IMG/VR virus record: IMGVR_UViG_3300032238_001356
Coordinates: 1 to 43,447 of that record
Source: a virus
Length of the DNA stretch: 43,447 nucleotides
Strand: one strand, 5' to 3'
Part shown: positions 10,041 to 40,106 of the stretch, piece after piece
Numbering within the stretch: position 1 is the stretch's first letter
Layout: each line of letters starts with the position of its first letter
Translations under genes and position numbers: made by a program
The notes under the pieces: generated by a model
Databases searched by the model: none
Seen by the model: the letters and a program-made list of their open reading frames with translations, nothing else
What the model was told of the DNA's origin: nothing

Positions 10041-13000
10041 ATGATCAATTCAAAAGTTAAAGTTAGCACTATTTTAGAATCTCAACTTCCTTTATTTGTA
10101 AGAGAAGAATTTCCTCTTGCAACAGAATTTTTATCACAGTATTATGATTCTATAGAATTTCAAGGGGCTGCTTCTGACTTATTGAACAACATTGATCAAT
10201 ACGTTAAAGTTAATAATTTAACATCGTTAGTTAAAAAAACAACAACTTCTGAAGATATTGAGTCATATTCAACAACAATCTTAGTAGATTCTACAAAAGG
10301 ATTTACTGAAGATTATGGATTATTAAAAATTGATGATGAATTAATCACTTATACTGGAATTACTACAAATTCTTTTACTGGATGTATTCGAGGATTTAGT
10401 GGAATTACCTCATATAGAAGTCCTAATGATCCAGAAAATTTAGTTTTCAAAGAATCAATTTCAACATCTCACCAAAAAGGGTCTACGGTTAACAACCTCA
10501 GTATTTTATTTTTAGAAGAATTTTTAACAAAAGTAAAAAAACAATTTACTCCAGGATTTGATGGTAGGCAACTTGATGAAGATTTGAACCAAAATGTTTT
10601 TATCAAACATGCTAGAGATTTTTATTCAGCAAAAGGCACTGACGAATCGTTCAAAATTTTATTTAAAGCTTTATATGGTGAAAATGTTAACATTATAAAG
10701 CCAAGAGATTATGTATTTCAAACATCAGATGCTCGTTATATTGTAACAAAAGACCTTGTAGTTGAAGCAATATTGGGGGATCCTTTAAAATTAGTCAATA
10801 AAACTTTAAATCAAGATAAAACAGATTACTCTCCTTTTGGATACGGATCAATTTCCGCAGTTGAACAAATTACAAGGGATAATAGAGATTATTATATTGT
10901 TAAACTTGATTATGAAAACGATAAGGATATCACTCTAAAAGGGTCTATATACGGCGAATTTTCAATTCACCCCAAGACATTCGTTATCAATACGGAAGAC
11001 CTTGCAGAGGGTTCTACGGTCCTCTCTGTGGATTCTACAGTAGGGTTTCCAAACTCAGGAACAATCATTTTAAAAACATATTATTATACAAATAATGAAG
11101 TTAGTGCTATTGAAGAAATTCCTATTTCTTATGGAAGAAAAACAATTAATGAATTTTTGGATTGCTCAGGAATTCCACAAATTTTAAAAACAAATGTATA
11201 TGAAGTTAGAATTGATGATTATGCATATGGTTACGACGATGATGGAAATATAATCAAAGTCAGAGTTTCTGGAGTTATTTCTGATTTAGATATTCCATCA
11301 AAACTATCATCATGTTTTAAAGGAGATAATATTAATGTTATTACTTTAGGAAAAAAAGGAACTACCACTAAGGAAAATGATTGGGTATATAATATTACAA
11401 ACACATATAATGTAAAATCAATATCTTTGAATAGTTCTGATGGAATTTCAAATCAGTCATATTTGATTACAACTTATGATAGCCATATTATTACTAGATT
11501 TGACTCTATTATTTTAGAATCTCAAAATGGAAAAATAATCACAGGAAAAGTAACTAAAGTTCCCAAAGATAATCAACTGATTGTTTCCAATACGGGATCT
11601 ATTGATACTACATTATCATACACTATTACTAAGCAGTTATCTAGACCTAGAGTTGCAAATTATCCCGAAGCAAATTCATATAACGCAAATATTCAAAATG
11701 TTTATTTTGATTTAGACAACAAGGATTCTCTTTATGTGGCTGCAGGTTCACTTCCAAATTATGAAGAAACTTTAGACTTAAGAGATTTTTCAAAGACATT
11801 TAATGCGAATTTAAATGAAAGTGAGGAGATTGTTTTTGAGTCTAAGCATTCATTTTATACTGGTGATGGTGTAGTTTATATTCCAGGATCTGAAGATAAT
11901 AAATTGAATATATCCGAAGGAGTTTATTTTGTAAAGAAAATAAATGATTATACAATTAAACTTGCTAGAAGTAGATCAAATATTAATACTGAAGAATTTT
12001 TAAGTATCACAGGCATTACTACAGGAAACGTAAATAAATTTGAATACTTTGATTTTGCGTATCAAAAATTAGATCCACAAAATTTAATTAGAAAAATATC
12101 AAAACCAAATGACGATTCTGGAACTTATCCAACTCCTTCAGGATTTGTCGGCATTCTTAAGAATGGCGTTGAAATTTTAAACTATAAATCTAAAGATTTC
12201 ATTTATTACGGATCAATTGATTCAGTATCAGTTTTATCTCCAGGAAGTGGATATGATATTATAAATCCACCAGTTTTGTCTATATCTGATGAAGTTGGTG
12301 CCGGATGTACGGGATTTTGTGCTGTAACAGGAAATCTTTCTAGAATTGAAATTGTTGATGGTGGATTTGATTATCTAGAAAATCCAACTATCAAAATTAG
12401 TGGAGGAAATGGAAGAGGAGCAAGAGTAGAACCTCATTTAGTATCAGTTGATCATGTGGTTGAATTTAATTCAACAAAAGTTGGTGGAGCAGTTGATACT
12501 GCGAATAGTATTATTGGATTTTCATCTGCTCACAGATTTAGAGATGGTGAAAAGATTTTCTATAAGACATATGGACAACAAGGTCTTGTTGGATTATCTA
12601 CAGATTCTGGATATTATGTTTCTGTTTTATCTCCAACTCAAATAAAACTTTATGAAACAAGAAATGATGCTTTACTGAAATCTGATAATTGGATAGGAAT
12701 TGGAACAACTGGATATGGTGTTGGAAAACATGCATTTAAAGCTCAAGTTAAGAAAAAAATTCTTGGGTCTGTAAGAGTAATAAGTCCAGGAATAAATTAC
12801 CAAAATAGGCAGACAGCAGTTAATTTAGATGATACTAGAGGATTGAATTCAATTGATCTAGCAACATCTTCCATTAAAATTCTAAATCATGGATATTCCA
12901 CTGGAGAAAAAATTATATATTCTTCAACAGGATCATTTATTGGAGGATTATCTAATGAAATTTATTACGTAACAAAAATTGATAGGGATAGATTTAAATT

Positions 13001-16000
13001 ATCTTCAGTTGGTATTGGTAGTATAACGGATGATTATTACTTTAAATCAAAAAAATATATTGAATTTTATTCTGAAGGTTCTGGAACTCATTTGTTCAAT
13101 TATCCACCAATTTCAGTTTCGATTTATGGTAGATTGGGAATTGGAACTACATCGGACAATTCATACCAAGCAACTCTTCAATCAATTTTTAGAGGATCAA
13201 TTTCTGCTATAAATTTAGCAAATTCGGGAAGTTCTTATGGATCTCCAGAAATTATTAATTTTAGTAGACAACCATCATTTAAATTGTTAAATGGAAATGG
13301 AGCTTCTTTAATTCCTATTGTAGTTGATGGAAGAATAAAAGAAGTTCTTATAAACTATTCTGGAATTAATTACAATAGTCCTCCAAATTTAGTTGTAGAA
13401 GGATCTGGATCTGGTGCAATATTAGTTCCAATTGTTGAGAATGGATCTTTAGTTGATGTTAAAGTTGTTAATGGTGGATATGGATATGAATCTTCAAATA
13501 CAAAAATTTTAGTATTTTCTCCAGGAGAAGGTGCAGAATTTTCTGCAAAAATCAAACCATGGAACATTAATATTTTTGAAAGATTGAATGATTCCAAACA
13601 ATTAGTTGCCGATGATGGAGTTATTGCTAGTGGAATAAATCCATCATATGGATTAGAATATTCTCATGTTTATGCTCCACGTTCACTAAGAAAAATCCTT
13701 AATGCTGTTACTATTAGTGAACAAGGTTCAAACAGTTATAGACCAGATATTGAATCGGATAGTGATGTTGTATTAAAATACCATTCTCCAATTATTGGAT
13801 GGGCTTACGATGGAAATCCAATATATGGTCCATATGGATTTGCTGCATCTAATAGTGGAACAGTTATAAGAATGAAATCTGGGTATATTTTAAATTTAAA
13901 TCCAGATAGACCATCAGGATTTAGACCTGGATTTTTTGTTGAAGATTATGTTTATAATGCAACTTCTGGATATGATGATCAATATCTAGATGAATATAAT
14001 GGTAGATATTGTGCAACTCCAGAATATCCAAATGGCGTATATGCATATTTTGCAACAATTTTTGATGAAAATTTGGATACTGATGGACCATTCAAAAATC
14101 AAAGAAAGCCAATATTCCCATACTTGATTGGAAATTATTTCAAATCAAAACCAAATGATTTTAACTTTAAAACAAGTTCTAATCAAAATGATATTGACCT
14201 GAATCAAAAAAATTGGGTTCGCAATACATTCTCTTATAACTTCGAATCTCCTGATACAAATTATAAGTTTTTAATTAATCCTACAAAATTTTCTTCAAGG
14301 CAAAATTCTATTGTAAAGAGTACGTCTCAAGGAAAAGTTACTGAGATAGAAATTATTAGTGGTGGAGATAAGTATCAATCTCAAGATCAAATCATTTTTA
14401 ATAATGAAAATACTGGAGGAACGAATGCCTTTGCTAGAGTTTCCTTAATTGATGGAGTAGGAATTTCTAGTGTTAGTGTAGCATCGAGTACCATTTCATA
14501 TGCACAATTTATCCAATATGGAAAGAAAGGTCAGTTTGTTGCAATATCTACAAATCAGAATAACTATTCCCTAGGAGAATCTTTTGTTATTTCTGGATTG
14601 AGCACTGATGAAACTCACTTAAGAGGATCATTTAAATCAATTATTAAAGAAAATTCATTATCATTAAAAATTGGTATTGGAAGTATAGGAGTTACTGGTA
14701 TAGTTACCAGTTTAACTGTTGGTGGGTCATTGTCTTTCCCATCATTGATGGAAAATGATGTTCTTCAAATAGAAGATGAACTAGTAAAAGTTTTAAATAT
14801 TGATGAATTAAATTCAACAATTAGAGTTTTAAGAGGATATAAAAATACAGTTTCTGTAGCACATAGTTCTTTAACCACTCTTACAGAAAAACCAAGAAAA
14901 TTATACTTTGATGCTGGATTTACAACTTCATTCGAATATCAAATAGATAGAGAATATTATTTTAATCCTATTGAATCTGTTGGATTAGGAACTACAGCAG
15001 GAGTTGGTATATCATCAGCATTGGTAGTAGGAATTCAAAATTTAAATTCTGAAGTGGGAATTGCTACTAGCAGTAAAACCCAATTATACTTTAAAAATAG
15101 TGAAGAAGTATCAAGATATTTTACTGGTGGATATATTGGTATTGTTAGTACTACTACTTCCACAGGAGTTTCTTCTACAGGATTCCATAAATCTCATGTA
15201 GAAGTTTTATCTGTTGGAAGCACTTCAATAACGATTAATTTCAATACAACTTCTCTTCAAGGAATTGGAGTTACTGCATATATTTCTAAAGAAAAGATTG
15301 TTAAAATTCCAACCAAAACAATTTATTTACCAAATCATGGACTGAAGACTGGAACAAAATTAATTTACAATTCTAATGGGGGTACAGGATTATTCGTTTC
15401 TACTGACGGTAAAAATAATTTTGTTTCTCTAGGTTCATTTGATAATTTGTATGCAATTTCAATCAATAATGATATTATTGGAATTTCTACGAGAGTAGTT
15501 GGATATGGATCTACCGGAGTTATTGCTGGATTAGGATCCACTGCAATAACAAATACCTTATATTTTACGGGTATTGGAACTGGATCTTATCATAGTTTTA
15601 AAACAAAGTATGAAAATGTTGTTACGGGAGATCTAAACACAAACAGAGTTACTGTTTCAGCAGCTCAGACTCATGGATTACAGGTAGGAGATTCCGTAGT
15701 TGCAAATATTATTCCTTCAGATATAAAAACAATATCAGTTTCTTACAATCCAATAAAAAGAAGGTTAGTTGTAGATCCAAAAACATTCACGGAATCAAAT
15801 GTTGATTTAGTAAACAATACTATAACTATCAATAATCATGGATATTTTACTGGACAGAAAGTAATATATGTTTCAGCATCTGGATCAATATCGGGATTAA
15901 CAAATAATCAATATTATTATGTCGTAGTATTTGATTCAAATAAATTTAAATTATCTGAAAGTTTATATGATTCAACTCAAAAAATTCCTACTGTTGTTGA

Positions 16001-19000
16001 TTTAACGTCAGCTTCTATTGGTTCTGTTGGGATAATTTATCAAGTTAATCCCCCAATTATTGCATATGGTAATCAAACACTAGTATTTGATTTATCTGAT
16101 GGTTCTCTAGCAAGTAATTTTAAACCATCATTTACTTTTGAATTTTATAAAGATAAAAACTTTAAGCATGTTTTTAGATCTGATGAACTAGATACTTTCT
16201 TTGAGGTTAAAAAATCTGGTCTGATAGGAGTTACACCAACAGCTAACGTATCTATAACTCTAAATTCAAGTTTATCTAAAAAGATTTTTTATAATTTAAA
16301 GCCCGTTAATTTATTAACAACTCCAAAAATTCAAAGAGAAATTGCCTCTGATAATGAAGTTTTTAACAAAAATTCTGTAGAAATTGTTGAAAGTCTTTAT
16401 AATGGAAAGAAAACTATTATTGGTATAACTACAAATACATTCCAATATTCATTACCAAGTAGACCAGAAAAAACATATTATCAAAATAATATAGATTCTA
16501 TATGCAAATATCAAACAAATTCTCCTCATGCATATGGACCAATAAGTTCTATAGATTTGAAGAGTGGTGGAAACAACTATAAAGTCATTCCTGGTATTTC
16601 TACAGTTATTTCGGATTATGGTTCAGGTGCTATATTGCATGTAAATAGCACTGAAATTGGTAAAATTAAAAAAATTGAACTTAAAAATATTGGATTTGAT
16701 TATCCATCAGATAAAACTTTAAGTCCTAGTGTAAAATTACCTCAAATTTTAAAGGTTAGCACATTATCAATAATTGATAAAATTACAGTATCTTATGTTG
16801 GAAAATATTATCTAACTAGTCCAAAATTAATTGCGCTTGATGGCATAACAAGAGAAAAAATTAATGATTTGGAAATTGATTATAAAATTGGTGAACCAGA
16901 AGCTTATGTAGTTAAAAATACTGAGGGAATTAATGATGTAGTTCCAATTATTATACCAACAAATAATTCTAATGGAATTAGAATTAACAATATCAGTTTT
17001 GATATTGTTAGTGGAGTTGCAACTGCAGGATTAGCAGTAAGTTATAGTAATCCTGAAGATTTCCCATTTAGTGTAGGTGATAGAATTTTTGTTGAGCATA
17101 CTAATATTAATTCAACTTATGGTGGATTGGGATATAATTCAAAAGACTATGGATATAAATTGTTTACAATTGTATCAACTGATCCAAATATTGGAGGAGA
17201 AAATGGTTCTGTAACATATGATATGAGTGAATATATTGGCGAAAGTTATCCTGGAGTATATGATAAAATTAATTCTGTAGGTACTATAGTTCCAGAATCA
17301 TATTTCCCATCTTTCAATGTTACTTTGAAGCAAAGATCTTTTATTGAAGGAGAAAATATTGTATATGGTGATAACGAAGCACTTGTTGAAAAATGGTATG
17401 AATTAAACAGATATCTTAAAGTTTCTACTGATCAATCTGTTGCTGTAGGAGATTTAATAGTAGGAAAATCTTCAAAAACAAAAGCTAAAGTTTTAAACGT
17501 AGAAACTTCCGATTCTCAATACAATATTTCTTCTAACAGTGTAGTATATTCTGGATTTGATAGAAAAACTGGATTCCTAAATGAAAATTCTCAAAGAATT
17601 CATGATAATGATTACTATCAATATTTCTCATATTCAATTAATTCCAAAGTTCCTTTAAATGTTTGGGAAGAACCAGTAACATCATTAAATCATATTTCTG
17701 GATTTAAAAAATTCAGTGATTTAACACTGGAATCTATTCCCTCAGGAAAAGATAATCATGCCGATGATGATACTTTTGTTGGAATTAAAACTGATCAAGA
17801 TCAAGGGTCTTTTTATGGAATTAATGATATTACTAGATTTGTAGATTTAAATTGTGTAACTGACTTTGATTTGGTAACAGAAACATCTGTAGAAGTTGAT
17901 GGAGACTTGGTATCGGAAAAAGTTATTTTTGATAGCAGAGTTCTCCAAGATTATTCAGAATCGATTTCTAACAGAGTTTTAGAAATAGATGATATAAGTG
18001 ATCAATTTATAAATCATTTACCAAGAACTTATGTTGAGGTTGATGAATTTATTCTTAGCGAAATTCCTTCTAAAAAATATTTTGCATTTATAAAAGATAC
18101 TAGATTTAAAGAAATTAGACAAGTGGTTAATATTTCTTTACTTCAAGATCAATATAAATCATATTTAAATGAATATGGAAAACTTTATACAGTAGATGAT
18201 CTTGGATCATTTGATTTTAATTATTCGGATGTGCATCCAGAACAAGGAATCTTAAGTTTTTATCCCACTCATACTAATTTAAATTCATACACAATAGATC
18301 TGATATCATACAATCCAGGATATCATAATCCATTATTGGATAAATCTCCACTTTCAATTGGAGATCTTGTTAACATTAATTCTGGAGTAACTACTTATAT
18401 TGAAGGTAATCCCATAACAATTGCAGAAATTCCCATTAATTATAATTCGTCAAAACTTTTAGTTCAAATAAAAGACGAAAATAATAAGGTTGAGTTGAAT
18501 GAATTATCAGTTCTTCATGATGATTCTGATGTTTATATTTCAGAATATGGAAGATTATCTAATAATAATTCTCAAGTCGGACTTGGGCAGTATAATGCGG
18601 AGATTTTGGATTCAAATGTAATTATTACATTTACTCCATATTTCCAAAATACTGGAACAATTAATACTGTTAATATATCGATTGCAAATACTTCAGCATC
18701 AGGAATTGCTACTTATAAATTCGATAACTCTATCTTTAATTCATATTCAGTTGGACTTGCCGCTACTGGAGTTTCTGTTGCAAGCACGGTTGCAAAATAT
18801 GATCATTTAAATGTTGGAGAAAATTATGGTGGATCTTATTGTATAGTTTCAGTAGCAGATACTACTGGTAGACATCAATTATCAGAAATTGTTATAATAG
18901 ATGATGAAGATAAATCATATTCAATAGAATATGGAAGTGTGAATAATGTTAATAATAACATCGGTTTGGGAACATTTGGAGTAGCAATAATTGATTCACA

Positions 19001-22000
19001 AACACATTTACATTTTACTCCATTTGATTTAAACGTTGATACTCAAGTATCAGTGTTCCAACAATCAATTGGATCAAAAAATGGTATCAATACAATCTCG
19101 GAAATAAACATTACTGAAGGTTCTATATTAACAAAATCATCAACATATTATGGAACAGAATATGATGGAGTAGGATTTAATCTCAATTATAAAGGATTAC
19201 CTATTTTTGAAAGAGAATTTAATCCAAGTGATCCGTCAGTACTATCGATTTCAAATGATACTTTTTACATTAGCAACCACTTCTTTACTAATGGAGAAGA
19301 AATTTCTTATAGTATCGAAGATGTTTCTGTAGAGTATCCAATTGGAATTGCAACAACAACAATATCTGGTATTGGAACTACATCAATTCTTCCATCTACA
19401 GTTTATGTTATCAAATCTGGAGAAGGATCCTTTAAACTTGCAGCAACAGCACAAAAAGCTTTAGCAGAAGTTCCACAAAATTTAAATATAACAAATTGTG
19501 GTCTTGGTAGAAGACATAAATTTACTTCAAAAGATCAAACAAGTAAAGCATTAATTGCAATTGATAATGCAATACAATCACCAATGTATGAAACTGTTAT
19601 TAAAACTTCATTAAGCACATCTATTGCTTTGAGTGGAGATGTAATACAGATTGCTGGAATTAGCAGCATTTCTTCAGGAGATTTACTCAAAATTAATAAT
19701 GAAATTGTAAAAGTTGATAGAATTGGTGCCGCAAATACGGTAACTATTTTAAGAGGTAGAATGGGGACTTCCTTGGAGGCACATTCTATTGGAAGTACAG
19801 TTACAAAAATGAACGGACAATATACAATTATCGATAATAGAATATCTTTTGTATCTGCTCCATATGGAAGTTATCCAGTAGAGACATCTAATCAGAATGA
19901 AAGAGACTATGTTGGAATTGCAACACATTCTTCTTTCTCAGGAAGAGTATTTACTAGATCCGGAGTTCCAAATTCAACATTAAAAGCATATTCCGATAAT
20001 TACATTTACGATGATATTTCACACCAATTTAATGGAATATCAACATCATTTACATTAAAGTCTAAAGGTTTAAATCCAACTGGTATTCAAACATATAGTC
20101 CGATTGTATTGGTAAGAGGAATATTTCAAAATATTCAAAGATCTGAAGGACCAGTATTTGTTGAGGGAAGTTACGATATTTCAGAAAATTCAGGAATATC
20201 TACAATTAATTTCTTAAAGTATGTTGGAATTCAAACTTCTGATGTTAACGTATCAAATATTCCCAATGGTGGAATTATAGTTTCTGTTGGATCCAGTCAG
20301 GGATTTGGATATCAACCATTAGTTTCCGCAGGAGCTACTATAACCGTTTCCGCAGCAGGAACAATAACAAATATTAGTATTGGAAATAGTGGATCTGGAT
20401 ATAGATCTGGATATCAACCAACGGTTAATGTTTTTGTTAGAAATTCTCAAAGATCAGCACAGTTGCAAACTGTTGGTTATGCCTCCATTTCAAATGGATA
20501 TATTACAAGTATTACACTATCAAATCCTGGAGTTGGTCTTACAAATTATATTAACTCAAGTCAAACTTACGTATCATTCCCAGTCGGATCGGGATCTAGC
20601 ATAATTTTTGTAAAAGATGTTACTTCAATTTCATCGGGAGATTATATTAGTGTCGGTGCTGCATTAACGAATGTTAAAATCGTTGGTGTTGGATCTACTG
20701 CTATTACAATTGGTACTGCAAATACTATTTCATCTTCAATTTCAATTGGATCTATAGTATCATATAAAAAATTCAGTCCACCAAAGGTTATTATTGATTC
20801 GCCATTAAATTATAATAATTTACCTTTAAAATACAGCAAATCTTCATCTGGACCAGGATTAGGAACTGGAGCTACAGTAGATATTATTGTTGGACAAGGA
20901 TCTAGTATTATTGATTTTAATATAAAAAATTATGGATTTGGATATAAAGAGGGAGAAATTTTAACTGTTGATATTGGAGGATCTGTTGGAGTTCCTACAG
21001 CAGGAATTTCCACTCAATTTAAAGAATTCCAAATCTTTGTTAATGGTACTTATAATACAGAATTTAGTGCATGGTCTGTTGGAGAATTGCAACTATTGGA
21101 CAATATTTCCAATAATTTTAATGGGCGTAGAAGAGTATTTACATTAAAACTTGAAGGAAAAACTATTTCAATTAACACTAAAAAAGGATCTAATATTGAT
21201 TTGCAGCAAGCACTTATTATTTTCATTAATGATGTTCTTCAAATACCTGGACAATCCTATACTTTTAAAGGAGGAAGTACAATCCAGTTTTTATCTCCTC
21301 CAAGAGGATCTGATGAAAATTATGGAGGTGATGTCTGTAAAATTCTATTCTATAGAGGTACTAGAGATGTTGATGTGATTGATATTGATATTTTAGAAAC
21401 AGTTAAAGCAGGAGATACCGTTGATTTGACCAGTGAGGAAATTCAATATCAAGAATTAGAAAGAGTTGCTAAAGATATTGAATCTACGGATACGGTCATA
21501 ACAAATCCATATTCTGGTATTGGAGTAGTAAATGATCCAAAATTCAAAAAATCACTAACTTGGTGTAAGCAAACAGAAGATAGAATTATAGATGGACAAC
21601 CTATTGGAAAAGATAGGATTTTATATGAACCACTAATAAATCCAATTGCATATGCAATTAGAAATATTGGAATAAATACTACTCAAATATTTGTGGATAG
21701 TATTAATCCATTTTTCAATTCCAAAAAAGAGAACATTGGAGATAAACTAGGATCACAAATTCAAATTTATAATCCAAATCTATCTTTAGTTTCTGCAGCA
21801 GCTACTGCAATTGTATCCGCCGCAGGAACTGTCCAATCAATTGCAATTAATAATGGTGGTTCTGGATATTCAAGAACTCCACTGATTACTATTTCAAACC
21901 CATATGAAACAGGATCTTCTTATGGAGCTTCAGCAACCGCATCTATAACTTCTGGAGTAGTCACTTCAATTGTGGTAAATAATCCAGGAATTGGATATAC

Positions 22001-22892
22001 TTTGGGTAGCGCCCAAAATGTAAGTATAAGTTCGACATTCTTTGGTGCAGGATTCCCATTATCTAATGGAACATTTAATAACGTTAGAGCGACTACCGAA
22101 ACTGGAGTTGGTAGAGACATAACTCTTGATTTAAAAGTTGTTAATGATAGATTAGTAGAATCTACCATAACAAATGGTGGATTTGGATACTCTCTAAATG
22201 ATAAACTAATCGTTTCTTCTATTGATTATGCTCCAAAAAATATATCAACTAAATTAAAAGAAGTCATTGAACTTACAGTAACCTCTATCACAGAACCAAA
22301 AGTTTTTATTGAACCTCCGACAACAAAAGTAATTGATAATATTAAAAATGTTACTTATGTTGGAGATAGTGGAATTATTAGTGGTATAAAAACCACTACA
22401 ATTGGAGGTAATCCTGGATTAATTTTAGATTTCCTAATCCCTAATGATTCTTGGATAAGAAATATTGGAGTTTCTGTTGGATTTGGAACTACTGGAATTA
22501 GTGGAATTCAAACTGGATATTTCTTCGTAGTGAAAAATTCTTCAGTTGGAAATGGAGTAACTTCCTATGACTTAAATGGTAATATGGTTGGTATTGGTAC
22601 TACCTGTCTGGATAACGTATATCAAGCAATTGCTGTTTCTCTGGGAAGTACAAGTGCATTAGGAATTGGAGTTACAAATTTAGCTCAAGTTACTGTAAGA
22701 ACTTCAAATAATAATATAAGTGGTTTGGGTTATAGTGGATTTTACGGCGAATTTACTTGGGGTAAAATTTCAACTCCAGGAACAAATACATTATCTTTTG
22801 ATGTTAACTTGACTAATGGAATTTCTGGATTAGCAACTGCTCCAGTTGTTAGAAGAAAATATCCCTTAAAATACGATACATACACTCTATAA
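10041..22892 (+). CDS. gp7: Giant gp7-like baseplate wedge protein with modular repeats (4283 aa)
   Basis: The gene lies between gp6 and gp8, the T4 position of gene 7, but is about four times the T4 length. The N-terminal 250 residues hold a gp7-like segment, RDFYSAKGTDESFKILFKAL (Arg192 onward), resembling DFYS.KG.E.S.KFLFK.LY of T4 gp7. The rest is a beta-rich chain of repeats: GGxGY modules (e.g. residues 735, 1145, 1435, 3450, 3935, 4040), nHg.tGekviY modules (about 595, 805, 940, 1759, 1922, 3072) and RG.yGT..H modules (Arg117, Arg1598, Arg3238). It also has a YHYH-type domain (GWAYDGNPIYGPYGF, Trp1254), a triple EYG..GLG..FTP repeat (2696-3014) and two gp10-like FNG..FtL modules (3322, 3682). 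The frame is intact throughout. Gp7 is inferred from position and the N-terminal match; the role of the repeats is unknown. Confidence 0.8.
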   Translation: MINSKVKVSTILESQLPLFVREEFPLATEFLSQYYDSIEFQGAASDLLNNIDQYVKVNNLTSLVKKTTTSEDIESYSTTILVDSTKGFTEDYGLLKIDDELITYTGITTNSFTGCIRGFSGITSYRSPNDPENLVFKESISTSHQKGSTVNNLSILFLEEFLTKVKKQFTPGFDGRQLDEDLNQNVFIKHARDFYSAKGTDESFKILFKALYGENVNIIKPRDYVFQTSDARYIVTKDLVVEAILGDPLKLVNKTLNQDKTDYSPFGYGSISAVEQITRDNRDYYIVKLDYENDKDITLKGSIYGEFSIHPKTFVINTEDLAEGSTVLSVDSTVGFPNSGTIILKTYYYTNNEVSAIEEIPISYGRKTINEFLDCSGIPQILKTNVYEVRIDDYAYGYDDDGNIIKVRVSGVISDLDIPSKLSSCFKGDNINVITLGKKGTTTKENDWVYNITNTYNVKSISLNSSDGISNQSYLITTYDSHIITRFDSIILESQNGKIITGKVTKVPKDNQLIVSNTGSIDTTLSYTITKQLSRPRVANYPEANSYNANIQNVYFDLDNKDSLYVAAGSLPNYEETLDLRDFSKTFNANLNESEEIVFESKHSFYTGDGVVYIPGSEDNKLNISEGVYFVKKINDYTIKLARSRSNINTEEFLSITGITTGNVNKFEYFDFAYQKLDPQNLIRKISKPNDDSGTYPTPSGFVGILKNGVEILNYKSKDFIYYGSIDSVSVLSPGSGYDIINPPVLSISDEVGAGCTGFCAVTGNLSRIEIVDGGFDYLENPTIKISGGNGRGARVEPHLVSVDHVVEFNSTKVGGAVDTANSIIGFSSAHRFRDGEKIFYKTYGQQGLVGLSTDSGYYVSVLSPTQIKLYETRNDALLKSDNWIGIGTTGYGVGKHAFKAQVKKKILGSVRVISPGINYQNRQTAVNLDDTRGLNSIDLATSSIKILNHGYSTGEKIIYSSTGSFIGGLSNEIYYVTKIDRDRFKLSSVGIGSITDDYYFKSKKYIEFYSEGSGTHLFNYPPISVSIYGRLGIGTTSDNSYQATLQSIFRGSISAINLANSGSSYGSPEIINFSRQPSFKLLNGNGASLIPIVVDGRIKEVLINYSGINYNSPPNLVVEGSGSGAILVPIVENGSLVDVKVVNGGYGYESSNTKILVFSPGEGAEFSAKIKPWNINIFERLNDSKQLVADDGVIASGINPSYGLEYSHVYAPRSLRKILNAVTISEQGSNSYRPDIESDSDVVLKYHSPIIGWAYDGNPIYGPYGFAASNSGTVIRMKSGYILNLNPDRPSGFRPGFFVEDYVYNATSGYDDQYLDEYNGRYCATPEYPNGVYAYFATIFDENLDTDGPFKNQRKPIFPYLIGNYFKSKPNDFNFKTSSNQNDIDLNQKNWVRNTFSYNFESPDTNYKFLINPTKFSSRQNSIVKSTSQGKVTEIEIISGGDKYQSQDQIIFNNENTGGTNAFARVSLIDGVGISSVSVASSTISYAQFIQYGKKGQFVAISTNQNNYSLGESFVISGLSTDETHLRGSFKSIIKENSLSLKIGIGSIGVTGIVTSLTVGGSLSFPSLMENDVLQIEDELVKVLNIDELNSTIRVLRGYKNTVSVAHSSLTTLTEKPRKLYFDAGFTTSFEYQIDREYYFNPIESVGLGTTAGVGISSALVVGIQNLNSEVGIATSSKTQLYFKNSEEVSRYFTGGYIGIVSTTTSTGVSSTGFHKSHVEVLSVGSTSITINFNTTSLQGIGVTAYISKEKIVKIPTKTIYLPNHGLKTGTKLIYNSNGGTGLFVSTDGKNNFVSLGSFDNLYAISINNDIIGISTRVVGYGSTGVIAGLGSTAITNTLYFTGIGTGSYHSFKTKYENVVTGDLNTNRVTVSAAQTHGLQVGDSVVANIIPSDIKTISVSYNPIKRRLVVDPKTFTESNVDLVNNTITINNHGYFTGQKVIYVSASGSISGLTNNQYYYVVVFDSNKFKLSESLYDSTQKIPTVVDLTSASIGSVGIIYQVNPPIIAYGNQTLVFDLSDGSLASNFKPSFTFEFYKDKNFKHVFRSDELDTFFEVKKSGLIGVTPTANVSITLNSSLSKKIFYNLKPVNLLTTPKIQREIASDNEVFNKNSVEIVESLYNGKKTIIGITTNTFQYSLPSRPEKTYYQNNIDSICKYQTNSPHAYGPISSIDLKSGGNNYKVIPGISTVISDYGSGAILHVNSTEIGKIKKIELKNIGFDYPSDKTLSPSVKLPQILKVSTLSIIDKITVSYVGKYYLTSPKLIALDGITREKINDLEIDYKIGEPEAYVVKNTEGINDVVPIIIPTNNSNGIRINNISFDIVSGVATAGLAVSYSNPEDFPFSVGDRIFVEHTNINSTYGGLGYNSKDYGYKLFTIVSTDPNIGGENGSVTYDMSEYIGESYPGVYDKINSVGTIVPESYFPSFNVTLKQRSFIEGENIVYGDNEALVEKWYELNRYLKVSTDQSVAVGDLIVGKSSKTKAKVLNVETSDSQYNISSNSVVYSGFDRKTGFLNENSQRIHDNDYYQYFSYSINSKVPLNVWEEPVTSLNHISGFKKFSDLTLESIPSGKDNHADDDTFVGIKTDQDQGSFYGINDITRFVDLNCVTDFDLVTETSVEVDGDLVSEKVIFDSRVLQDYSESISNRVLEIDDISDQFINHLPRTYVEVDEFILSEIPSKKYFAFIKDTRFKEIRQVVNISLLQDQYKSYLNEYGKLYTVDDLGSFDFNYSDVHPEQGILSFYPTHTNLNSYTIDLISYNPGYHNPLLDKSPLSIGDLVNINSGVTTYIEGNPITIAEIPINYNSSKLLVQIKDENNKVELNELSVLHDDSDVYISEYGRLSNNNSQVGLGQYNAEILDSNVIITFTPYFQNTGTINTVNISIANTSASGIATYKFDNSIFNSYSVGLAATGVSVASTVAKYDHLNVGENYGGSYCIVSVADTTGRHQLSEIVIIDDEDKSYSIEYGSVNNVNNNIGLGTFGVAIIDSQTHLHFTPFDLNVDTQVSVFQQSIGSKNGINTISEINITEGSILTKSSTYYGTEYDGVGFNLNYKGLPIFEREFNPSDPSVLSISNDTFYISNHFFTNGEEISYSIEDVSVEYPIGIATTTISGIGTTSILPSTVYVIKSGEGSFKLAATAQKALAEVPQNLNITNCGLGRRHKFTSKDQTSKALIAIDNAIQSPMYETVIKTSLSTSIALSGDVIQIAGISSISSGDLLKINNEIVKVDRIGAANTVTILRGRMGTSLEAHSIGSTVTKMNGQYTIIDNRISFVSAPYGSYPVETSNQNERDYVGIATHSSFSGRVFTRSGVPNSTLKAYSDNYIYDDISHQFNGISTSFTLKSKGLNPTGIQTYSPIVLVRGIFQNIQRSEGPVFVEGSYDISENSGISTINFLKYVGIQTSDVNVSNIPNGGIIVSVGSSQGFGYQPLVSAGATITVSAAGTITNISIGNSGSGYRSGYQPTVNVFVRNSQRSAQLQTVGYASISNGYITSITLSNPGVGLTNYINSSQTYVSFPVGSGSSIIFVKDVTSISSGDYISVGAALTNVKIVGVGSTAITIGTANTISSSISIGSIVSYKKFSPPKVIIDSPLNYNNLPLKYSKSSSGPGLGTGATVDIIVGQGSSIIDFNIKNYGFGYKEGEILTVDIGGSVGVPTAGISTQFKEFQIFVNGTYNTEFSAWSVGELQLLDNISNNFNGRRRVFTLKLEGKTISINTKKGSNIDLQQALIIFINDVLQIPGQSYTFKGGSTIQFLSPPRGSDENYGGDVCKILFYRGTRDVDVIDIDILETVKAGDTVDLTSEEIQYQELERVAKDIESTDTVITNPYSGIGVVNDPKFKKSLTWCKQTEDRIIDGQPIGKDRILYEPLINPIAYAIRNIGINTTQIFVDSINPFFNSKKENIGDKLGSQIQIYNPNLSLVSAAATAIVSAAGTVQSIAINNGGSGYSRTPLITISNPYETGSSYGASATASITSGVVTSIVVNNPGIGYTLGSAQNVSISSTFFGAGFPLSNGTFNNVRATTETGVGRDITLDLKVVNDRLVESTITNGGFGYSLNDKLIVSSIDYAPKNISTKLKEVIELTVTSITEPKVFIEPPTTKVIDNIKNVTYVGDSGIISGIKTTTIGGNPGLILDFLIPNDSWIRNIGVSVGFGTTGISGIQTGYFFVVKNSSVGNGVTSYDLNGNMVGIGTTCLDNVYQAIAVSLGSTSALGIGVTNLAQVTVRTSNNNISGLGYSGFYGEFTWGKISTPGTNTLSFDVNLTNGISGLATAPVVRRKYPLKYDTYTL

Positions 22893-33367: not shown

Positions 33368-34771
33368 ATGCTTAACCCATTTTTTCTTCAAGGTTCTAAA
33401 GGGGAACAAAATTTAATTCAAGACCTTATTAATGAGCAATTGAAGATCTATGGTGTTGAAGTTCATTATATGCCTAGAAGATTCCTTACTACAAAGACAG
33501 TAATAAGAGAAGTAATAGAATCTTCCTTTAGAGATGCATATCCAATAGAAGCTTATATTGAAAATTATAATGGATATGAAGGACCAGGAACAATACTTTC
33601 AAAATTTGGAATTCAAGATATCGATACTCTAACCTTGGTAATATCTAGGGATAGATATGAAACTTATATGGCTCCATTAATGAGATATCAGAATATTCCA
33701 AATTTGGAATTAATTGATAGACCAAAAGAAGGAGATTTAATTTATTTTCCATTAGGAGATAGATTATTTGAAATTAAATATGTTGAACATGAGCAACCAT
33801 TCTATCAATTAAATAAAAATTACGTTTACGTTCTAACTTGCGAACTCTTTAGATACTCCAATGAGGATGTGGACACTACAGTCGATTACATCGACGATAA
33901 TGTAAAAGACCAGGGTTATATCGAAACTCTACATCTAGTGGGTTCCGGGTCCACTGCCCATGCTTATACGGGGTTGGTAGATGGAGCAGTGTATAGGATT
34001 AATATTACAAATAGAGGTAGTGACTATACAGAAATTCCAAAAATTGTATTTGAAAAATCTCCTTTAGATGGAGGAACTGCTGAAGGAGAAGCAGTAATGA
34101 TTGATGGTTTGGTTTCTTGTAATGGAGTGGTTTCATTAAAAGTTCAATCAGTTGTAATCACAAATCCGGGATATGGATATACTGTTGCTCCAAAAGTAAT
34201 TTCTATTGGTGGAGGAAATGATTCCAAAGGATTTTCTGCCGAAGCTTTAATCGGAAATGGTGTGGTTGGAGTAGTTACTATATCTGATGGCGGATCAGGA
34301 TATATTAAGAATAGTCCACCTTCAGTTTCATTTACTAATGAAACTTTTGGTGATGGTGGATTAAATGCTTCTGGAATTTCTTCAGTAAGTGTTGCATCTA
34401 CAGTATATGCAATTAACATGACCAATAGAGGAAAAGAATACCTTGCACCACCAACAATTGTTATTGGAAATCCAGTTCTTGTTGGTTCAGGAAATTATGA
34501 AAATAATGAATATATTATTGGATCTACAAGTGGAGCATCTGCTAAAGTAAATAGTTGGAATAAGGTAACTAAGATTCTTACAATTACAAAACCAAATGGA
34601 GCATTTGTTCCTGGAGAAACAATTACAGGACAAAACTCTGAAGCTTCTTATAAGTTATCTTCTACAGAAGAATTTGATAAAACCGATACTTATTCTGAAA
34701 ATGAAGAAATTCAGATTGAATCAAATAAAATTATGGATTTTTCAGAAAAAAATCCATTTGGAAATCCATAA
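33368..34771 (+). CDS. gp14: Neck protein gp14 with C-terminal GGxGY repeat extension
   Basis: Residues 1-170 match T4 gp14: VEVHYMPRRFLT, YNGYEGPGTILSKFGIQD, then KEGDLIYFPLGDRLFEIKYV and PFYQL. T4 gp14 is 256 residues; this one is 467. The surplus (about 205-375) is a run of repeats: INITNRGSDYTEIPKIVF, VVITNPGYGYTVAPKVISI, ISDGGSGYIKNSPPSVSF (GGSGY at 308-312) and INMTNRGKEYLAPPTIVI. These are the same modules as in gp8 and the giant proteins. Residues after 390 have a GE-rich SGASAKV...GETITGQ motif common in phage beta domains. Gp14 is part of the head-tail connector (known for T4). Confidence 0.92.
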   Translation: MLNPFFLQGSKGEQNLIQDLINEQLKIYGVEVHYMPRRFLTTKTVIREVIESSFRDAYPIEAYIENYNGYEGPGTILSKFGIQDIDTLTLVISRDRYETYMAPLMRYQNIPNLELIDRPKEGDLIYFPLGDRLFEIKYVEHEQPFYQLNKNYVYVLTCELFRYSNEDVDTTVDYIDDNVKDQGYIETLHLVGSGSTAHAYTGLVDGAVYRINITNRGSDYTEIPKIVFEKSPLDGGTAEGEAVMIDGLVSCNGVVSLKVQSVVITNPGYGYTVAPKVISIGGGNDSKGFSAEALIGNGVVGVVTISDGGSGYIKNSPPSVSFTNETFGDGGLNASGISSVSVASTVYAINMTNRGKEYLAPPTIVIGNPVLVGSGNYENNEYIIGSTSGASAKVNSWNKVTKILTITKPNGAFVPGETITGQNSEASYKLSSTEEFDKTDTYSENEEIQIESNKIMDFSEKNPFGNP

Positions 34772-35818: not shown

Positions 35819-36247
35819 ATGGACAAAAACTTTAGTGAATTGAATAATGCGTTTAGCGTAGAAGCAGATATTGTTCCAATATCAAAAGATTCTGAAATTG
35901 CTAATAATAAAATTGAAGAACTAAAAAGTGCTTCAAATGAAATTAAAAAAGATTATGAATATACAAGAGGAAATTTATATTCTTTAATTGAAAAAGGTCA
36001 AGAAGCTGTAAATGGAATTTTAGAACTTGCTCAAGATGATGGACAACCAAGAGCTTATGAAGTTGCTGGTCAATTAATAAAAAATGTTGCCGATGTAACT
36101 GATAAATTGATTGATCTCCAAAAGAAATTAAAGGATATGGATGAGTCTTCATCTTTTAAAGGTCCAACTACTGTTAATAATGCATTGTTTGTGGGGTCAA
36201 CTGCAGAATTAGCAAAATTTTTAAAAAGCCAAGGAAATAAAGACTAA
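35819..36247 (+). CDS. gp16: Small terminase subunit gp16
   Basis: The 142-residue product (T4 gp16: 164) has two central helices, EIKKDYEYTRGNLYSLIEKG and QPRAYEVAGQLIKNVADVTD, then KLIDLQKKLKDM, the coiled-coil hairpin of small terminases. The C-terminus contains NNALFVGSTAELAKFLKSQ, like the T4 segment ATVFMGSPTEL. Gp16 forms a ring that recognises DNA and stimulates the gp17 motor (known for T4). Unlike T4, it is separated from gene 17 by a 2.2-kb gene. TAAATA overlaps the upstream stop, 2 bases before the ATG. Confidence 0.9.
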   Translation: MDKNFSELNNAFSVEADIVPISKDSEIANNKIEELKSASNEIKKDYEYTRGNLYSLIEKGQEAVNGILELAQDDGQPRAYEVAGQLIKNVADVTDKLIDLQKKLKDMDESSSFKGPTTVNNALFVGSTAELAKFLKSQGNKD

Positions 36248-36282: not shown

Positions 36283-38442
36283 GTGCATAAGATAAAATCC
36301 CACAAATCAGTTGAACAAATTGCAAAGAAGCATCGCTTAGATGTTTCTTTCATAAAAACTCAACTTAAAATGGGAGTACCTATTGAGCATGAGCATACTG
36401 GAGATAAAGATCTTGCAACAGATATTGCTCTTCAGCATTTGGACGAAATTCCAGATTATTATACTCGTTTAAAAAAAATGGAAACATCCGCAAAAAAAGA
36501 ACATAAAAAGTTCAAGGATGTAAAAGAATATGCTGAAGCCGAAAGTAATTTGGTTGATGATATGGATTCGTCAATGATGAAACATGCTGTGCATTCTATT
36601 CATGTTGAACATGATAAAAGATATTGTCCAAAATGCAAAGAAGTTCAGTTGAGAAGTGAATGTAAATATGGTCAAAGATATTGGGATATGTTTTCTTTAC
36701 CAGGCAAATTAAAAGAAGAAACTAAATCTGGTGATGAGGGTTTACATGATTGGTTTAATAAGTCAAAATCATCTGATGGAAAAAGTGGTTGGGTTCAACT
36801 AGGCGGAAAATGGGCAGGTAAACCTTGTGCTAGGCAGCCGAACCAAACTTCCACACCAAAATGCGGAAGTTCCAAGATAGCAGCAAACCTTTCTCCAGAA
36901 GAGGAAGAAAGGGCAAGAAAAAGAAAGAATCGCTTAGATCCAAACCAAACACAAAAAACTGGTGCAGCAAAACCAACTAACGTAAGAACTGAAGAAATGG
37001 ATTTACAAGAAGTCAAAGACAATCCAAGTAAAGGAAGCGGTAAAAAAGACGCTTGTTATAATAAGGTAAAGTCAAGATATGATGTATGGCCAAGTGCATA
37101 TGCTTCTGGAGCACTGGTTAAGTGTCGCAAAGTTGGTGCTGCAAACTGGGGAACTAAATCGGAGGAAACTATGCACGAAGAAGAAAGATATTGTCCTCTT
37201 TGCGATAAAAGAGAAACTCGTTCAGAATGTTCTTATGGTGGTAAAACATGGGATAAAGTCTCAGTAAAGGATCATGAGTATTCAATGGCTCGTTCTGAAC
37301 TTGATACTTTGATAAAAGCAGCAGAAAGAATTAAATCTAAAGTTGGTAAAGGTGAAGGTAGCTTAGAAGCATGGGTTCAATCAAAAATTACTAAAGCAGC
37401 AGATTATATTGATACTGCAGCAGATTATATCAATAGTGGAGAAATGGAAGAGGCAACAAGTCCATCCCAGCAGGCAGCAATTGCAATCAATATGAAAAAA
37501 AGAGGTGTAAAACCAAAAAATGAAGAAAAACTTGTAGATAAAATTTTAGGAGAACTGCAAGAAGAAGATCCTTGCTGGAAAGGATATACCCAAGTTGGAA
37601 TGAAAAAGAAAGGTGGTAAAGAAGTTCCTAATTGCGTTTCCTCAAATGGAGCAAAAGGATATAAAAAAGAAGATGTAACAATTGAAGACGCTAACGGAAA
37701 TATATTTGCGGAAGTAGTTGATATTATCAAACCAGAACCAATTAAGGGATTTAAATCTCAAGTAGAAGAAGCAACTCGTCTTCAGGCAGAAACTGGTAAT
37801 ATTATCTCAGTTATTTTGAGTTGGAGAGGAAAAACTTATTGCGTGAAGATGTTCTTCCCTCAAGTCAATACTCCATCTAAAAAAGATGTAAGTGATGAGA
37901 TTAATAAAATTTATCCCAATGCAAGAGTTCTTCAATATGAGATCTCAAATATTTGCCCTGGACAACCATTGATTCAAGTTTTAAATAGTAGATCAAAAAA
38001 TTATCTTATTACTAATAAAACAATTGGCGAAGAAACTGCTGTTGAAGACAAACCAGTTACAAAAGAAGAAAAAAGAAAAGTTAAATTGATGCAAAAACTT
38101 GCAAGATTGAAAGCAGCGGCAAAAGCACCTGCAATAGTTTCTGATATTGCAACAAAAGAAGAAGTAGAAATTAAAGAGACTGCAGCATGGCAGAGAAAAG
38201 AGGGAAAGAATCCTGAGGGTGGACTAAACAAAAAAGGAATTGCTTCTTACCGCAGAGAACATCCTGGATCACACCTTTCACTTGCGGTTACAACAAAACC
38301 ATCAAAATTAAAACCAGGATCAAAAGCAGCAAATAGAAGAAAATCTTTCTGTGCTCGTATGGGCGGAATGCCTGGTCCAATGAAAGATGAAAAAGGTCGT
38401 CCAACAAGAAAAGCACTTTCATTGAGAAAGTGGAATTGCTAA
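36283..38442 (+). CDS. Chained small-domain protein between gp16 and gp17 (719 aa)
   Basis: Starts at GTG. The N-terminal 65 residues (KSVEQIAKKHRL; MGVPIEHEHTGDKDLATDIA; DEIPDYYTRLKKME) are DUF5661-like. Then come CPKC (Cys115/118) with Cys127, the block GLHDWFN...GWVQLGGKWAGKPC, and KKDACYNKVKSRYDVWPSAY with ASGALVKCRK. A second copy of the Cys motif follows (Cys304/307/316), then a helical HEYSMARSELDTL domain, PCWKGYTQVGMKKKGG (Cys431) and a beta domain. The last 90 residues (AAWQRKEGKNPEGG...ARMGGMPGP...GRPTRKALSLRKWNC) are DUF6321-like. These elements occur as separate short domains in other viruses, from memory. The protein is Lys-rich with many Cys, and nucleic-acid or scaffold binding is possible. 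Domain numbers are from memory. Confidence 0.75.
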   Translation: MHKIKSHKSVEQIAKKHRLDVSFIKTQLKMGVPIEHEHTGDKDLATDIALQHLDEIPDYYTRLKKMETSAKKEHKKFKDVKEYAEAESNLVDDMDSSMMKHAVHSIHVEHDKRYCPKCKEVQLRSECKYGQRYWDMFSLPGKLKEETKSGDEGLHDWFNKSKSSDGKSGWVQLGGKWAGKPCARQPNQTSTPKCGSSKIAANLSPEEEERARKRKNRLDPNQTQKTGAAKPTNVRTEEMDLQEVKDNPSKGSGKKDACYNKVKSRYDVWPSAYASGALVKCRKVGAANWGTKSEETMHEEERYCPLCDKRETRSECSYGGKTWDKVSVKDHEYSMARSELDTLIKAAERIKSKVGKGEGSLEAWVQSKITKAADYIDTAADYINSGEMEEATSPSQQAAIAINMKKRGVKPKNEEKLVDKILGELQEEDPCWKGYTQVGMKKKGGKEVPNCVSSNGAKGYKKEDVTIEDANGNIFAEVVDIIKPEPIKGFKSQVEEATRLQAETGNIISVILSWRGKTYCVKMFFPQVNTPSKKDVSDEINKIYPNARVLQYEISNICPGQPLIQVLNSRSKNYLITNKTIGEETAVEDKPVTKEEKRKVKLMQKLARLKAAAKAPAIVSDIATKEEVEIKETAAWQRKEGKNPEGGLNKKGIASYRREHPGSHLSLAVTTKPSKLKPGSKAANRRKSFCARMGGMPGPMKDEKGRPTRKALSLRKWNC

Positions 38443-38459
38443 TATAAGGAGTTATTATA

Positions 38460-40106
38460 ATGTCTGATGATGTATATCTTGGTAATCCTAATTTAAAAAA
38501 AGCTAATACTCAGATTGAATTTACTGAGGATCAAATTGTAGAATTTTTAAAGTGCAAGGATGATCCCGTTTATTTTGCAAAAAATTATATTAAAATTGTT
38601 ACTCTTGATCATGGATTACAACCTTTTAAGATGTATCCATTTCAAGAGAAATTAATTAATAATTTTCATAATAATAGATTTAATATATGCAAAATGCCTC
38701 GTCAAACAGGTAAATCTACAACTTGCATATCTTATCTTCTACATTATGCAGTTTTTAATGATAACGTAAATATTGCAGTTCTTGCAAACAAAGCATCAAC
38801 TGCTAGGGATTTACTTGGAAGATTACAACTTGCTTACGAAAACTTGCCTAAGTGGATGCAGCAAGGTATCCTATCTTGGAATAAGGGATCTTTAGAATTA
38901 GAAAATGGATCAAAAATTTCAGCGAATTCTACTTCTTCATCTGCTGTCCGTGGTGGATCCTACAATATCATCTTTCTTGACGAATTCGCTTTCATCCCAA
39001 ATCACATTGCTGATGACTTCTTTGCCTCTGTTTATCCTACTATATCGTCTGGGCAAAGCACTAAAGTAATTATTGTTTCAACTCCACATGGTATGAATCA
39101 TTTCTACCGAATGTGGCATGATGCAGAACGCGGTAAAAATGAATATGTTCCTACTGATGTTCATTGGTCTGAAGTTCCTGGAAGAGATGAAGCGTGGAAA
39201 ATACAGACAATTTCAAACACAAGTGAACAACAATTCAAAATTGAGTTTGAGTGCGAATTTCTTGGATCTGTAGATACCTTAATTGCACCTAGTAAGCTTA
39301 GATCCCTTGTATATGATCCTCCAAGAAAAACAAATGCGGGATTAGATATATTTTTAGAACCAAGGGAAGATCATGATTATATAATCACAGTTGATGTTGC
39401 GCGTGGAGTGGGGATTGACTACTCTGCATTTGTTGTGATTGATATTACTCAATTTCCCCATTTAGTGTGTGCAAAATATAGGAATAATGAAATTAAACCG
39501 ATGCTATTTCCAAGCATAATTGTTGATGTAGCAAAAAATTATAATAATGCATTTGTATTGTGTGAGGTAAATGATGTTGGAGATCAAGTAGCATCAATAA
39601 TTCATTATGATCTAGAATATAATAATCTTCTAATGTGTTCAATGAGAGGACGTGCTGGACAGATTGTCGGGCAAGGATTTTCTGGTAAAAAGACTCAATT
39701 GGGAGTAAAGATGTCCAAGACTGTAAAAAAAGTTGGATGTCTTAATTTAAAGACTATGATTGAAGAGAGTAAACTTCTTTTCAATGACTACGATATTATT
39801 AGTGAGTTAACCACCTTTATTCAAAAACACAATTCTTTTGAGGCAGAAGAGGGTTGTAATGATGATTTGGCGATGTGCTTAGTCATATATGCTTGGTTAG
39901 TAGCTCAAGAGTATTTTAAAGAACTTACGGATCAAGATGTTAGAAAAAGATTGTATGAAGAACAAAAAAATCAAATAGAACAAGATATGGCTCCTTTTGG
40001 ATTTATATCTGATGGGTTAGATTCTGAAAGTTTTGTTGATCAAGAAGGAGATAGGTGGTTTTCTGATGAATATGGTGATCGTTCTTACATGTGGGACTAT
40101 ATGTAA
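38460..40106 (+). CDS. gp17: Large terminase subunit gp17 (packaging ATPase/nuclease)
   Basis: The 548-residue product (T4: 610) has Walker A PRQTGKST (residues 80-87, Lys85), Walker B IIFLDEFAF (Asp174, Glu175), and the coupling motif VSTPHGM. The C-terminal RNase H-like nuclease has acidic residues Asp312 (ITVDVARG), Glu369 (LCEVNDVGD) and Asp468/Asp469 (CNDDLAM). All catalytic residues expected for a working headful motor are present. It packages DNA through the portal (gp20) using ATP. A good Shine-Dalgarno (AAGGAG) precedes ATG 38460, 17 bases after the stop of the 719-aa gene. Confidence 0.96.
   Translation: MSDDVYLGNPNLKKANTQIEFTEDQIVEFLKCKDDPVYFAKNYIKIVTLDHGLQPFKMYPFQEKLINNFHNNRFNICKMPRQTGKSTTCISYLLHYAVFNDNVNIAVLANKASTARDLLGRLQLAYENLPKWMQQGILSWNKGSLELENGSKISANSTSSSAVRGGSYNIIFLDEFAFIPNHIADDFFASVYPTISSGQSTKVIIVSTPHGMNHFYRMWHDAERGKNEYVPTDVHWSEVPGRDEAWKIQTISNTSEQQFKIEFECEFLGSVDTLIAPSKLRSLVYDPPRKTNAGLDIFLEPREDHDYIITVDVARGVGIDYSAFVVIDITQFPHLVCAKYRNNEIKPMLFPSIIVDVAKNYNNAFVLCEVNDVGDQVASIIHYDLEYNNLLMCSMRGRAGQIVGQGFSGKKTQLGVKMSKTVKKVGCLNLKTMIEESKLLFNDYDIISELTTFIQKHNSFEAEEGCNDDLAMCLVIYAWLVAQEYFKELTDQDVRKRLYEEQKNQIEQDMAPFGFISDGLDSESFVDQEGDRWFSDEYGDRSYMWDYM

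Follow-up and report, generated by a model that had tools for sequence, protein, structure and literature searches.

A multi-module gene lying between two terminase genes and probably encoding a T4-like internal head protein of cyanophages

The window analysed here is the whole stretch of 43,447 nucleotides of the IMG/VR virus record IMGVR_UViG_3300032238_001356. A 719-aa open reading frame with a GTG start codon lies in it between the genes of the small (gp16) and large (gp17) terminase subunits, 35 nt after the former and 17 nt before the latter (Table 1). Its start lines up with MxKxKSHKTVEQIAKKH in homologues and both flanks are secured by profile matches, which bears out the preliminary description of a gene wedged between the two terminase genes; the description of its product as Lys/Cys-rich also holds (net charge +33, pI 9.3, 16 Cys). 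The further neighbours matched in the window are gp13, gp14, gp15, gp18 and gp19, and the gene sits in a gp15-gp16-x-gp17 block. Elsewhere in the window, a 4283-aa baseplate wedge protein (10041-22892) matches near its C-terminus phrog_460, the same PHROG as gp14, and the C-terminal half of the gp14 neck protein (33368-34771) has an extra repeat-like region that also matches baseplate and virion families.

The protein is a string of about nine small conserved modules. Only DUF5661 and DUF6321 have a significant Pfam model in the window, and window-built profiles found each of the blocks without such a model in 84-104 proteins of related loci. The match of DUF5872 (PF19197) to the KKDACYNKVKSRY block is below the cut-off in the window (0.014) and reaches 3.8e-12 for a stand-alone copy in another locus (L140). 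Pfam and profiles thus confirm as conserved modules all the blocks previously named from the letters (DUF5661-like, DUF6321-like, GLHDWFN/GKPC, KKDACYNKVKSRY, HEYSMA and PCW.GY..VG), and two elements that had been overlooked can be added, a Cys-rich block that occurs twice and a beta-beta-alpha-beta domain, hereafter AB. The AF2 model, based on 43 alignment rows, consists of folded beads and disordered linkers of pLDDT <50 (mean pLDDT 68, pTM 0.27). Sequence and fold searches of the PDB with the window protein gave nothing significant and its NCBIfam search gave no match; the AB-domain look-alikes that appeared in the fold search, phage phi29 p56 and p6 and YkzG, were discarded as not significant (E 0.37-0.6). 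The HEYSMA module used alone as query found only six phage records, and no literature on DUF5661 or DUF6321 was found.

Table 1 Features of the locus in window coordinates. CTS, capsid targeting sequence; a slash directly after a Glu (E) within a sequence marks a predicted cut, here and in the text
Feature	Position	Strand	Evidence
gp16, terminase small subunit (flank)	35819..36247	+	phrog_445 4e-53
Late-promoter-like CTAAATA, ends 24 nt before start codon	36253..36259	+	motif scan
Multi-module protein gene, T4-GC 119 / PHROG_727 family	36283..38442	+	ORF, phrog_727 1.9e-100, synteny
DUF5661 module, aa 11-68	36313..36486	+	Pfam PF18905 2.9e-15
Cys-rich block A, aa 112-139, YCPKC..RSEC.YG..YWD	36616..36699	+	profile
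GLHDWFN/GKPC module, aa 153-209	36739..36909	+	profile, 97 proteins
KKDACYNKVKSRY module, aa 254-292, remotely related to DUF5872	37042..37158	+	profile, 104 proteins; PF19197
Cys-rich block B, aa 302-330, repeat of block A	37186..37272	+	profile
HEYSMA two-helix module, aa 330-390	37270..37452	+	profile, AF2
PCWxGY..VG module, aa 429-470	37567..37692	+	profile, AF2
CTS-like segment KGFKSQVEE within the chain, aa 488-496, before AB	37744..37770	+	P3 Val, not T4 L/I
Beta-beta-alpha-beta domain AB, aa 495-564	37765..37974	+	profile; stand-alone CTS-tagged copies in relatives
Predicted prohead-protease site IKE632/TAAWQRK (L/I-x-E)	38170..38178	+	matches stand-alone MKSFKQFLEE/SAAWQRK
DUF6321 module, aa 641-717	38203..38433	+	Pfam PF19846 1.2e-22
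gp17, terminase large subunit (flank)	38460..40106	+	Terminase_6N 3e-20, phrog_2 7.5e-74

Sequence comparison assigns the gene to the cyanophage cluster T4-GC 119, or PHROG_727, with homology covering several modules both in the PHROG profile and in tblastn matches to the T4-GC 119 genes of S-SM2 and S-SM1. The 556 phage records matched by tblastn are nearly all cyanophages and pelagiphages; annotated relatives bear the T4-GC 119 label in S-SM2, S-SM1 and P-HM1, and the one in S-E7 is annotated 'Phage T4-like structural protein, T4 GC0119'. Synteny was surveyed in IMG/VR loci picked by gp17 only, all of them close relatives with gp17 at least 81% identical: the gene adjoins gp17 in all 38 loci that offer 2.5 kb or more of upstream DNA, usually at 6-17 nt, and lies between gp16 and gp17 in all 25 loci where gp16 is visible. 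Its near-universal presence in relatives contradicts the possibility, raised beforehand, of an isolated insertion. The exceptions come from other genomes, as the gene precedes gp16 in P-SSM2 and is separated from gp17 by kilobases of inserted DNA in S-SM1 and S-SRM01 (host-derived genes or several ORFs), inserts being present in S-SZBM1 as well. A hot-spot for insertions between gp16 and gp17 has been described in cyanophages (PMC3037559).

The family varies greatly in architecture: the 88 complete proteins display 40 module arrangements and lengths of 271-1076 aa. None of them has a module after DUF6321, DUF5661 comes first in every homologue having it except one, and the middle modules are reshuffled. 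DUF6321 also exists as stand-alone genes in the T7-like S-TIP37 and in pelagiphage records, where the neighbours are uninformative or mixed. A short ORF (..CAGRKKRAKGE..KPVE) lies within about 60 nt upstream in many relatives and seems to overlap the start of the gene in another frame; a similar stretch is fused to the N-terminus of the T4-GC 119 protein in two relatives. This ORF looks like another module caught before fusion.

The gene probably has its own promoter and is expressed late, as suggested by its late position and by the motif upstream of it. In the 200 nt that precede them, 75 of 80 distinct homologues have an [ACT]TAAATA word, in most cases between -20 and -40, compared with none of 72 gp16 genes, and NATAAATA is the published late promoter consensus of cyanophages, reported in S-PM2 (PMC2984593). 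CTAAATA occurs only twice in the 43-kb window against 13.5 expected, and late-promoter-like words seem to be avoided there outside promoters. TATAAATA likewise occurs twice in the window (1-43447), against 6.6 expected. A scan for promoters and terminators with the sigma-70 consensus remained at chance level.

Orthologues of the protein are listed in mature virions of two phages, by record label for S-SCSM1_29 and by a mass spectrometry (MS) table for S-CREM2 ORF137. The former, which is the top BFVD fold match of the window protein (E 1e-25), is labelled 'virion protein' in a GenBank record that holds 48 such labels, compared with 45 virion proteins reported by the paper, a study that describes virion MS. 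The latter was detected with four unique peptides and 4.1% coverage (PMC10665884); contamination is possible at such coverage, and an MS listing gives no location inside the head. S-CREM2 ORF160, which carries three of the window protein's modules, was also detected, with seven unique peptides (PMC10665884). The main text of PMC3037559 does not name T4-GC 119 among the detected S-SM1 proteins. The idea of an only early, non-virion product, also considered at the outset, is thus at odds both with these listings and with the late-promoter motif that usually precedes the gene.

The internal proteins of T4 enter the prohead core via a 10-residue capsid targeting sequence (CTS), in which residues 4 and 7 serve targeting and residues 8 and 10 processing, the protease gp21 cutting after L/I-X-E (PMC9026906). 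The leader of T4 ipII and ipIII reads MKTYQEFIAE/A in NC_000866. Leaders conserved at these same positions 4, 7, 8 and 10 are found at the N-terminus of the T4-GC 119 protein in eight orthologue loci (MKTFQEFILE/A, MKNFKEFIDE/T, MKSFKQFIKE/T or MKTFTQFILE/A). The window copy has no N-terminal CTS (F/Y4, F7, I/L8, E10). To be targeted, it would have to rely on the weaker internal segment at aa 488-496, whose best PSSM score of 5.6 compares with a mean of 1.8 and a maximum of 7.4 in shuffles, or on another route.

Several modules bear a CTS of their own when they stand alone, namely AB, KKDACY/DUF5872 and DUF6321, the last two being encoded side by side in L140. In about 30 loci, a stand-alone AB protein of about 105 aa (MKSFKQFISE/S) is encoded right after the T4-GC 119 gene or between gp20 and gp21. 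The latter position could recall T4 gp67/68, an identity that was rejected because the pair formed by AB and a 'MAQWNK' protein also occurs between the T4-GC 119 gene and gp17 in other clades. This two-gene cassette (CTS-tagged AB and 'MAQWNK..YLNQERSLFEV' protein; L008:13648-15291, L117:7667-9259, L036:4247-6457) is placed in either position as if it had moved as a unit. A scan near the N-terminus for the pattern M..[FYLW]..[FYW][ILVMF].E recovered 43 of 161 module-bearing ORFs versus 12 of 1690 other ORFs, these counts, like all others here, being uncorrected for phylogeny and the motif definitions having been refined on the same loci, with only the S-CREM2 and S-SCSM1 genomes independent. 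In S-CREM2, CTS-like leaders are present in five of 52 MS-detected coding sequences versus one of 167 undetected ones (p=0.003); the five are the SAM hydrolase, the kinase, the cytidylyltransferase, ORF13 and ORF136, which lies directly upstream of the T4-GC 119 gene. In S-SCSM1, the pattern marks the virion NMNAT (MKSFLQFLKE/A) and the AB protein ORF30 (S-SCSM1_30), a CTS-tagged stand-alone AB that has no virion label in the record. T4-CTS-like leaders were noted on S-CREM2 ORFs 6, 13, 14, 136 and 154 and on S-SCSM1 ORF91, and a Cas9-like ORF12 recorded with these cases has LRFASFMAE/A near its N-terminus. The presence of such leaders on virion-listed enzymes suggests that the SAM hydrolase, kinase and cytidylyltransferase/NMNAT of cyanophages are packed deliberately into the capsid and do not come from contamination. 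No earlier account of a cyanophage CTS was found in a search of mostly non-subscription literature, the one match being a T4 review in which cyanophages appear in the reference list only.

Copies of the CTS also occur within the chains. Seven family proteins of six architectures have a strict internal CTS (e.g. KTFFQFMIE/ASAAW), in every case in the 25-aa window before DUF6321 (2,028 aa scanned), against none in the other 51,264 aa of the family and four in 628,279 aa of other ORFs. By its sequence, this site looks like the fossil of a fusion of CTS-DUF6321 proteins (MKSFKQFLEE/SAAWQRK) in which the cut site was kept. The corresponding place of the window protein has VEIKE632/TAAWQRK, an L/I-x-E site, and a cut at E632 would free aa 633-719, a predicted peptide of 87 aa, 9.6 kDa, pI 11.1 and charge +17. 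Before AB, a [VILM]xE is present in 61 of 69 proteins versus 15.7 expected by shuffling, and E496 hardly varies; the P3 residue there is most often Val, outside the T4 L/I motif, and the conservation could be structural. The candidate [VILMF]xE sites of the window protein fall in segments of pLDDT <50 in nine of 12 cases, versus 23 of 53 other Glu (p=0.048, AF2 model). A general enrichment of L/I-x-E over the whole family was rejected as proof of cutting, since it is too slight (411 vs 363+-16). The earlier suggestion that the protein is possibly cut into parts is supported at the sequence level by putative CTS/cut-site motifs, which fall exactly at a module boundary in relatives.

The gp23 of S-SM2, whose maturation is deduced from homology, has MIAE/QPTN at the expected cut, and S-SM2_108, a CTS protein encoded beside the T4-GC 119 gene, has FLKE/TPTN followed by a gp23-like stretch; both sites are consistent with a T4-like specificity of the protease. 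Copies of the mature gp23 N-terminus, PTNxVGxxGYTSxGGPVAGFD, were also observed in small proteins (L001:4279-4707, L058:259, L006:3976, S-CREM2 ORF160, S-SCSM1 ORF97), often after a CTS and beside the T4-GC 119 gene, and these proteins may bind where the N-terminus of the capsid protein binds.

The gene probably encodes an internal head protein like the T4 'IP' proteins, made of several fused modules, processed by gp21 and packed with the DNA. Small modules, several of which are elsewhere separate capsid-targeted proteins, would have been fused into one late-expressed chain that would become part of the scaffolding core as the prohead is assembled. In the disordered linkers, gp21, the prohead protease, would then cleave this chain behind (hydrophobic)-x-Glu motifs, at least ahead of DUF6321 (IKE632/TAAWQRK in the window, releasing the basic 87-aa peptide) and probably also ahead of AB (VEE496/A). 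The basic, Cys-rich products would remain in the head with the DNA and would probably be ejected with it. Since it has no N-terminal CTS, the window copy is classed as IP-like and not as an IP. A more tentative extension, which we regard as possible and somewhat doubtful, is that of a capsid-targeted polyprotein, whose shuffled basic/Cys-rich effector modules would be freed in the head by the prohead protease and injected as counter-defence or takeover proteins. In that case, an arms race with cyanobacterial hosts would have left its trace in the 40 module arrangements. The blocking of a restriction enzyme by T4 IPI (PMC3012670) is precedent only for a function of T4-GC 119 after entry.

Other scenarios may explain some of these observations. 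An accessory of the packaging motor that binds gp16/gp17 or the portal and aids DNA translocation would account for the place between the terminase genes, and both the constant adjacency to gp17 in the 38 loci, usually at a few nucleotides, and the basic, Cys-rich protein are in its favor. Nevertheless, the gene order of P-SSM2, S-SM1 and S-SRM01, the general propensity of the gp16-gp17 gap for insertions, the recurrence of the modules in stand-alone CTS proteins where no terminase is visible and a variation in length and arrangement unlike that of a motor part make this unlikely. The earlier proposal of an accessory of packaging or capsid maturation therefore came near the mark in its second half, the best-supported role being that of a substrate of the maturation protease, whereas its packaging half finds no support in view of these displaced genes and modules.

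An uncleaved structural protein of the capsid or tail, such as a shell decoration or a part of the neck, would be congruent with the surrounding block of neck and tail genes, with the S-E7 annotation and with the S-SCSM1 virion label. We consider it improbable, given the CTS leaders of the eight orthologues and the internal CTS before DUF6321, the floppy bead-string of the predicted AF2 model and the lack of any sheath, fibre or baseplate relative in Pfam, PHROG and fold searches. The virion listings could also reflect contamination of the preparations by a late intracellular DNA-binding or regulatory protein, as the few peptides of S-CREM2 ORF137 may indicate and as the authors of that study suggest for their own regulatory proteins (PMC10665884). 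The late-promoter motif excludes only an early role. Yet the listing in two different phages and the link to the CTS render contamination very unlikely.

The reading as an internal head protein indicates where T4-GC 119 is likely to reside and how it is likely to be processed, with exact mature N-termini predicted. T4-like cyanophages rank with the most abundant marine viruses, yet a role is lacking for many of the proteins in their virions. A conserved T4-type CTS would provide a simple, testable rule for proteins riding inside the cyanophage head, and the SAM hydrolase, kinase and nucleotidyl-/cytidylyltransferase that earlier work reported in cyanophage virions carry it too.

One close known counterpart is T4-GC 119 / PHROG_727 of cyanophages itself, annotated as 'hypothetical' or 'structural protein', of the same family and in the same position; its function, targeting, modules and CTS are not described in the literature searched. 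The T4 core proteins gp22 and gp67 are cut into several pieces by gp21, and their fragments mostly leave the head. The multi-site cutting predicted here is similar, whereas the folded basic modules of T4-GC 119 would be expected to stay. The ejection proteins of SPN3US and phiKZ also lie inside the head and are cleaved after xxE by a homologue of gp21 (PMC5694885, PMC7411985), as predicted here. They have a long propeptide at the N-terminus and another motif (AXE in SPN3US), in place of a modular chain in which copies of the CTS lie internally. With T4 IPI, IPII and IPIII, the family shares the key CTS residues in orthologues and stand-alone modules, late expression, presence of orthologues in virions and small basic products, such as the predicted DUF6321 peptide of the window; it differs from them by the several modules joined in one chain, by the window copy without an N-terminal CTS and by the place of the gene at gp16-gp17.
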